DNA of 64,000 nucleotides from positions 1,015,507 to 1,079,506 of the forward strand of contig CP166960.1 of assembly GCA_041447175.1 (NCBI GenBank), read 5' to 3'. The stretch's first letter is position 1. The number at the start of each line of letters is the position of its first letter. This document shows, piece by piece, positions 7,017 to 7,187 of the stretch. The notes below the pieces were generated by a model that was given only the letters and a program-made list of their open reading frames with translations, made no database searches and was not told the origin of the DNA. The translations under genes and the position numbers were made by a program. Origin of the DNA: Candidatus Bathyarchaeia archaeon (lineage in GTDB: Archaea > Thermoproteota > Bathyarchaeia > Bathyarchaeales > Bathycorpusculaceae).

Positions 7017-7187
7017 CTAAATTTTCTTTTTGCTTAGAACTTCGCGGAAGGTAGCGTGGCACTTGGGGCATTCGAAGAGCCCGATTTCTAGTTGCATGCG
7101 TTTGCCGGCTTTGTCTGGTCTTCCAGCCATTTTCCAAGTTTTCTTTGGTTTGGAAACGTCGGCTCCGCATTTGGGACATTTTGCCAT
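7017..7187 (-). CDS. Cren7-like small zinc-ribbon protein
   Basis: A 56-residue basic protein starting at ATG 7187 behind a good GGAGGA. It has two CPxC knuckles (C4/C7 and C40/C43), so one zinc ion is likely. The rest resembles the crenarchaeal chromatin protein Cren7: a Trp near residue 18, a Lys/Arg-rich loop, then IGLFECP and a TFRE strand where Cren7 has IGLFKDP and YFRH. I read it as a zinc-bearing relative of the Cren7/SH3-like DNA-binding fold. That is inference; a generic zinc ribbon is the alternative. The gene 277 bases upstream on the same strand resembles the methyltransferase known to modify Cren7. Confidence 0.72.
   Translation of the reverse strand: [56 protein letters not shown]

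Follow-up and report, generated by a model that had tools for sequence, protein, structure and literature searches.

Cren7 and Sul7 were proposed in 2018 by Kaur, Iyer, Subramanian and Aravind to derive from zinc ribbons (PMC5906684). In its text, that paper describes orthologues of Cren7, from Crenarchaeota and Bathyarchaeota, that carry between two and four cysteines; it also gives Cren7Znr its name and catalogs fusions, a bathyarchaeal GIY-YIG one among them. A passage in PMC6136690 still calls Cren7 exclusive to Crenarchaeota, and one in PMC5182065 likens the ZitP zinc ribbon to Cren7. As excerpted from PMC5042384, Cren7 binds the minor groove, intercalates Leu28, and kinks DNA by ~50 degrees; in an excerpt of PMC8927968, Cren7 and Sis7d are named as targets of methylation by aKMT in Sulfolobus. 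A literature search on Cren7 with zinc, zinc ribbons, and Bathyarchaeota turned up no experimental work on a zinc-bearing Cren7.

A sequence-only reading of the DNA analyzed here, a 64,000-nucleotide stretch (the window; C1:1,015,507-1,079,506) of a single-contig, 2.73-Mb bathyarchaeal genome, had pointed to a 56-residue Cren7-like protein with CPxC knuckles and had mentioned the proposed zinc-ribbon descent of Cren7 and Sul7, which is indeed found in the text of PMC5906684. Since that text holds both zinc-bearing Cren7 homologues and the zinc-ribbon origin, the idea is not new, and the 56-residue protein is a well-supported further member of the zinc-bearing Cren7 relatives described in 2018. 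We consider it likely to be a Cren7 superfamily member that bears zinc and stands alone, with the role of a small architectural protein on the DNA (a chromatin protein) of its bathyarchaeal host. The gene and its parts are as follows.

7017..7187, minus strand: predicted zinc-bearing Cren7-like gene, 56 amino acids plus stop, read from 7187 to 7017
7195..7199, minus strand: ribosome-binding site GGAGG, 7 nt before the ATG, read by eye
7167..7178, minus strand: codons of the first putative zinc knuckle, C4-P-K-C7; C4 and C7 invariant in all 36 family members
7128..7136, minus strand: codons of Trp18-Lys19-Met20; Trp18 aligns with Trp26 of Cren7 and Met20 with its DNA-intercalating Leu28
7059..7070, minus strand: codons of the second putative zinc knuckle, C40-P-K-C43; C40 invariant, C43 Cys or apparently His

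The Trp, basic loop, and IGLFxxP/FR strands named by the earlier reading are present as Trp18, residues 23 to 30, IGLFECP (residues 35 to 41), and FR (residues 47 and 48), and the two CPxC knuckles supply four candidate ligands. The earlier reading gave the coordinates with no strand; the gene lies on the minus one. The protein ends in SKKKI and has a net charge of +10 and a calculated pI of 9.9. A promoter and terminator scan built for bacterial-type sites returned nothing.

A search of genome contigs found 148 relatives. Titles of the best 80 of these 148 are Bathyarchaeota or Bathyarchaeia, Bathycorpusculum, Bathyarchaeum, Nitrososphaerota, or miscellaneous Crenarchaeota group, and among the same 80 the nearest named relatives are Candidatus Bathyarchaeota assemblies with ≤93% identity. 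In a 36-member family alignment (A1), C4, C7, C40, Trp18, and Met20 are invariant; at the position of the fourth candidate ligand, some members apparently have His in place of Cys. When its codons were compared with those of eight relatives, the gene showed a dN of 0.046 to 0.085 and a dS of 0.59 to 1.58 in six of the eight pairs, dS being saturated and not computable in the other two; by this measure, the gene is under strong purifying selection. The existence of relatives, the conservation in the alignment, and the dN/dS comparison together rule out a chance open reading frame. Matches, paralogues included, occur in 112 of 201 sampled genomes of the class (E ≤ 0.001) and in 58 of 62 genomes of the organism's own family (f1), the exceptions being G135, G149, G174, and G188.

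Several other sequences were also recovered. The same genome carries a second copy (L007:4805-4967; G000:C1:894804-894966, minus strand) that is frameshifted with both halves well conserved, and L233, from a genome in the same genus, is its intact counterpart; the frameshift may mark a recent pseudogene or reflect an error in the assembly. The viral contig IMGVR_UViG_3300022221_000374 (L006:3001-3156) encodes a small related zinc ribbon with 36% identity over 44 residues. Divergent small cysteine-knuckle proteins (L168, L170, L171, L185, L186, and L189 to L196), many with a KEWD-type motif, make up a group present in Bathyarchaeia and other Thermoproteota; L192 and L195 lie inside longer open reading frames. 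A match at G000:C1:2586309 (E 0.10) was rejected as a Cren7 because it is, by eye, a 333-aa multi-zinc protein. Three TFS/TFIIS-type zinc-ribbon genes also lie in the window's genome, at G000:C1:893223, 1972598, and 2719387.

Kinship with Cren7 was examined by profile methods. In a Pfam scan of the single protein, generic zinc-ribbon models ranked on top, all under their own cut-offs. Pfam Cren7 (PF11520) matches 24 of the 36 family members at an E value of ≤1 (best, 2e-4), and Zn_ribbon_TFIIS weakly matches 31 of the 36. When A1 was compared profile to profile with 12 zinc-free Cren7 sequences, the probability was 81.6 (P = 1.1e-5, columns 13 to 50), and the alignment paired Trp with Trp, IGLF with IGLF, FR with FR, and Met20 with Leu28. 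The profile comparison thus upheld the proposed similarity, with the shuffle control described below also exceeded, but the single protein fell short of the Pfam Cren7 cut-off (15.8 versus 25 bits; E 0.013, residues 13 to 52).

With the knuckles kept, the C-terminal zinc ribbon of TFS outscored zinc-free Cren7 (35.8 versus 30.1), so that share of the resemblance is plain zinc-ribbon signal. This score and the Zn_ribbon_TFIIS matches would suit a transcription-type zinc ribbon, TFS/TFIIS-C-like or TBP associated, that touches RNA polymerase or promoter complexes and does not package DNA. We then scored profiles from which the knuckle columns had been removed on both sides, using 60 column shuffles as the null. 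A1 retained a score of 25.2 against zinc-free Cren7 (shuffle mean, 9.8; maximum, 16.3) and of 52.7 against short-loop zinc-bearing Cren7 (shuffle maximum, 16.7), whereas its score against the TFS ribbon dropped to 10.9, within the shuffles (maximum, 12.2). A generic zinc ribbon and nothing more was rejected because the Cren7 similarity persists above the shuffles without the knuckles, and a TFS paralogue was rejected because the TFS similarity does not. The acidic DE tip of TFS, present in 25 of 25 collected sequences by construction of the DE-containing pattern, has no counterpart in the 56-residue protein, and the strongly basic character of the protein also speaks against a transcription ribbon. 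The Cren7 kinship claimed earlier therefore extends outside the cysteines, and fold-level matches point the same way. On these profiles, we take the 56-residue protein to be a true relative of Cren7, with zinc binding predicted from the cysteine spacing.

Searches of PDB sequences brought a further alternative into view. With the single protein as query, phmmer found no Cren7 chain at an E value of ≤10; in a profile search, the best Cren7 chain was the L28M mutant 5wwc, and weak matches to the ribosomal proteins eL43 (E 0.59) and aS34 (E 0.83) appeared. The size, the charge, and the two CPxC knuckles would likewise fit a small zinc ribbon that binds RNA or the ribosome; many basic ribosomal proteins of archaea are about this small. 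The eL43 and aS34 matches span knuckle segments only, however, and over the full domain it is Cren7 that is matched, in sequence as in structure, which makes a ribosomal role improbable.

AlphaFold2 run on A1 produced a model with a pLDDT of 92.8 and a pTM of 0.64 and with strands at residues 16 to 21, 31 to 39, and 46 to 55, although the model may lean on remembered Cren7 structures. The best Foldseek match in the PDB was Cren7 6a2i (E 0.15, probability 1.00, TM 0.62), and none reached an E value of 0.001. VIA-align rows 1 to 10 were all Cren7 (Z 5.3 to 5.6 over 49 residues; rmsd 2.0 to 2.1 in nine and 3.0 in one), led by 3kxt (Z 5.6, rmsd 2.1, 49 residues, 31% identity), at Z values (<8) that can reflect a common arrangement. 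The zinc ribbons NrdR (Z 5.1) and ZPR1 (Z 5.0) came next and, being within 1 Z, are tied with Cren7 by the rule of the tool. The structure prediction proposed as a check by the sequence-only reading thus yielded a predicted three-stranded sheet like that of the Cren7 barrel and a top ten made up of Cren7, but with ordinary ribbons nearly level. Neither outcome that this reading had named as refuting, a plain ribbon lacking a Cren7-like core or an absence of profile similarity, was obtained. A model midway between the Cren7 and zinc-ribbon folds is what the published scenario of a zinc-ribbon origin leads one to expect. A model of the Cren7Znr-like neighbor protein, taken from relatives, had a pLDDT of 85.3 and gave a VIA-align top ten of Cren7 (Z 5.0 to 5.3), followed by NrdR (4.8).

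Sequences between the bathyarchaeal family and zinc-free Cren7 were then compared. Other Thermoproteota encode four-cysteine proteins with the loop of Cren7 itself; one of these, L153 (47 letters), reaches 51.8 bits with Pfam Cren7, over the 25-bit cut-off. The long-loop family matches this short-loop set with a profile P value of 1.9e-22, and the short-loop set matches zinc-free Cren7 with a P value of 2.7e-18. In L155, L160, and L163, the Cys number three and the second knuckle includes a His. Others (L206, L212, and L224) have one Cys per knuckle region, the first lying outside the aligned knuckle columns. Knuckle Cys are absent from L117 to L146 and L197 to L202, and many of L117 to L146 have Cys only near both protein ends. 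The existence of four-, three-, one-per-knuckle, and zero-Cys forms makes the series from zinc-bearing to zinc-free proteins real in sequence. Cren7 proteins with one Cys per former knuckle region (L204, L206, L212, and L224) are possible halfway stages of zinc loss. When 398 genomes of the phylum were searched with Pfam Cren7, 167 had a match at an E value of ≤0.01 and 154 passed the cut-off; the window's genome, included in this search, had zero matches at that E value.

Trees were built from 103 representatives and rest on 38 to 54 columns, a weak basis; the all-column tree omitted 3 rows, and the trees that lacked knuckle or Cys columns omitted a further 11, which were divergent or odd. 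In the TFS-rooted tree from all columns, the long-loop Bathyarchaeia and Cren7Znr formed a group with a support of 92. The two fell on one side of a branch with a support of 99/93 when whole knuckles were dropped and of 96/90 when the four Cys columns were dropped and the loop was kept (74 rows in all, with only every second long-loop row). When the loop columns were left out, the grouping appeared in only 44% of 200 bootstrap trees. The long-loop and Cren7Znr group stands apart from short-loop and zinc-free Cren7, and the 56-residue protein is a member of the long-loop Bathyarchaeia branch that these trees weakly group with Cren7Znr. Zinc-free sequences required one transition in the tree with whole knuckles dropped and two with the four Cys columns dropped, whether the loop columns were dropped or kept; in the latter alignment, a single zinc-free clade was not rejected (AU P = 0.515). 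Because zinc-free Cren7 has its closest zinc-bearing relatives among the short-loop proteins of other Thermoproteota, the suggestion that the window's protein may represent the state before metal loss fits those proteins better; the 56-residue protein is a zinc-bearing Cren7 relative as supposed, but on a separate, long-loop branch.

The zinc-Cren7 domain also occurs in larger proteins. In L067, L081, L087, L227, L230, and L231, it lies C terminal to a conserved domain of ~100 residues that is winged-helix-like by eye; L230, the sole fusion of this kind that was scanned, had no Pfam match at an E value of ≤0.01. In L183, L229, and L232, it is fused to an N-terminal part that is GIY-YIG-like by eye, L183 having only weak Pfam matches to DUF5752 and zinc ribbons; this architecture is probably the GIY-YIG fusion named in the text of Kaur et al. 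Such N-terminal parts, together with a coiled-coil region in L184 (all labels by eye), could indicate a DNA anchor in chromosome segregation or cell division, the kind of role that section 7 of PMC5906684 proposes for Cren7Znr and for CdvA and FtsZ fusions. For the window's protein, we give that role little chance: it is a bare 56-aa domain with neither the C-terminal motif of Cren7Znr nor a fusion, and its gene neighbors are TBP and signal peptidases and not division genes. These neighbors are listed below.

6231..6881, minus strand: archaeal signal peptidase I, conserved downstream neighbor (TIGR02228, 57.3 bits, cut-off 51.85)
5423..6163, minus strand: second signal-peptidase-like protein (TIGR02228, 50.0 bits, just under the cut-off)
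4815..5387, minus strand: TATA-binding protein (TBP), conserved downstream neighbor (PF00352, E 2.2e-61)
7465..7941, minus strand: aKMT4-like protein-lysine methyltransferase, upstream on the same strand (PDB and NF041081 matches)
7977..8303, minus strand: Cys-rich 108-aa protein that travels with the methyltransferase; no family matched (Pfam and NCBIfam, E ≤ 0.01)

The methyltransferase assignment rests on PDB matches to 5jwj, "Protein-lysine N-methyltransferase" (E 4.9e-39), and 5fa8 (E 2.9e-40), chains that we take to be aKMT4, and on NCBIfam NF041081 (E 2.6e-41; 141 bits, below the cut-off of 200). Conservation of the neighborhood was assessed in 40 stretches of ≤14 kb, reduced to 39 by leaving out L294 (no match of >60% identity); four of the 39 (L280, L284, L285, and L297), with a gene copy but no neighbor at all, were counted as misses. 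A signal peptidase lay near the gene in 33 of the 39 and TBP just downstream in 30, with pyrE (27) and a large helicase (21) named by eye. The frequency of TBP is the other point in favor of a transcription-type ribbon, which, weighed with the loss of TFS likeness once the knuckles are removed, we nevertheless judge unlikely. At 30 zinc-free-type Cren7 loci (1.5-kb flanks), no signal peptidase, TBP, or methyltransferase was found.

The methyltransferase was within 7 kb of the gene in 16 of the 39 relatives, and the Cys-rich 108-aa protein was nearby in 13. A neighborhood with TBP and an enzyme of the type that methylates Cren7 in Sulfolobus counts in favor of the chromatin reading. In the window, 281 nt separate the gene and the methyltransferase on one strand. 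Most of the 16 relatives carry the methyltransferase ~3.6 to 6.6 kb off and on the opposite strand (two have it at 493 nt and 1.9 kb), and cotranscription is therefore not a general feature. A Cren7Znr-like gene was present in 11 of the 39, always 52 to 76 nt downstream, and among the best 80 of the 148 relatives, a downstream Cren7Znr-like match was found at 25 of the 79 loci with enough flank. In the window, no Cren7Znr-like gene lies downstream of 7017 to 7187. The partner looks broken or Cys depleted in several relatives (L044, L053, L056, L062, L068, L082, and L085), as if this tandem partner were being lost.

The 56-residue protein is probably a small DNA-bending chromatin protein, and a mechanism can be proposed by analogy with Cren7. 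C4, C7, C40, and C43 would hold one Zn2+, which would staple a barrel that in zinc-free Cren7 is held by hydrophobic packing alone. The three-stranded sheet would dock in the DNA minor groove with no sequence specificity, the invariant Met20, at the position of Cren7 Leu28, would wedge between base pairs and kink the DNA, and the lysines, perhaps methylated by the neighboring aKMT4-like enzyme, would neutralize the DNA backbone. The protein would act beside the single histone (73 aa) and three Alba proteins that its genome encodes. A more elaborate proposal, which we hold to be doubtful, is that the family is a third, long-loop, zinc-dependent Cren7 branch, born in Bathyarchaeia when Cren7Znr was duplicated in tandem at an old signal-peptidase/TBP locus, and that in lineages such as the window's, where the neighboring Cren7Znr is absent, it may have become the main Cren7-type DNA bender beside histone and Alba, tuned by the neighboring aKMT4-like methyltransferase. 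If true, this would amount to a living chromatin system of the Cren7 type that depends on zinc.

In the literature, Cren7 serves as an example of presumed metal loss from a fold. With four-, some-, and zero-cysteine forms in one phylum, the transition from zinc to a hydrophobic core is directly testable with small proteins, and bathyarchaeal zinc-Cren7, from a genome that also encodes histone and Alba, is a convenient starting point. The fresh lead is the neighborhood with the aKMT4-like methyltransferase; the main value of the locus is as material for the metal-loss scenario.

Compared with known systems, the 56-residue protein shares with Cren7 (PF11520; PDB 3kxt and 2jtm) the Trp, IGLF, and FR strands and, at the level of a prediction in which zinc ribbons are nearly tied, the sheet and barrel; Met20 takes the place of the intercalating Leu28, from which DNA kinking is proposed by analogy. 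It differs from Cren7 in carrying the two CPxC knuckles, in a strand 3-to-4 loop about five residues longer, and in the lack of a C-terminal DDYP or (D/E)YP segment. The C-terminal ribbon of TFS/TFIIS is of the same zinc-ribbon type (CPxC...W...CxxC...FRE), but the likeness is confined to the knuckles, and the 56-residue protein lacks the acidic tip. With Cren7Znr, it has in common four cysteines, the loop PDK, and an SKxK after the last strand; the C-terminal extension and its conserved acidic residue, present in the Cren7Znr-like neighbor type of its relatives (A4), are missing from it. It agrees with the zinc-bearing Cren7 homologues described in the text of PMC5906684: up to four cysteines in the β1/β2 and β4/β5 turns, the same lineage named, and the same evolutionary reading, to which the present analysis adds the gene neighborhood.
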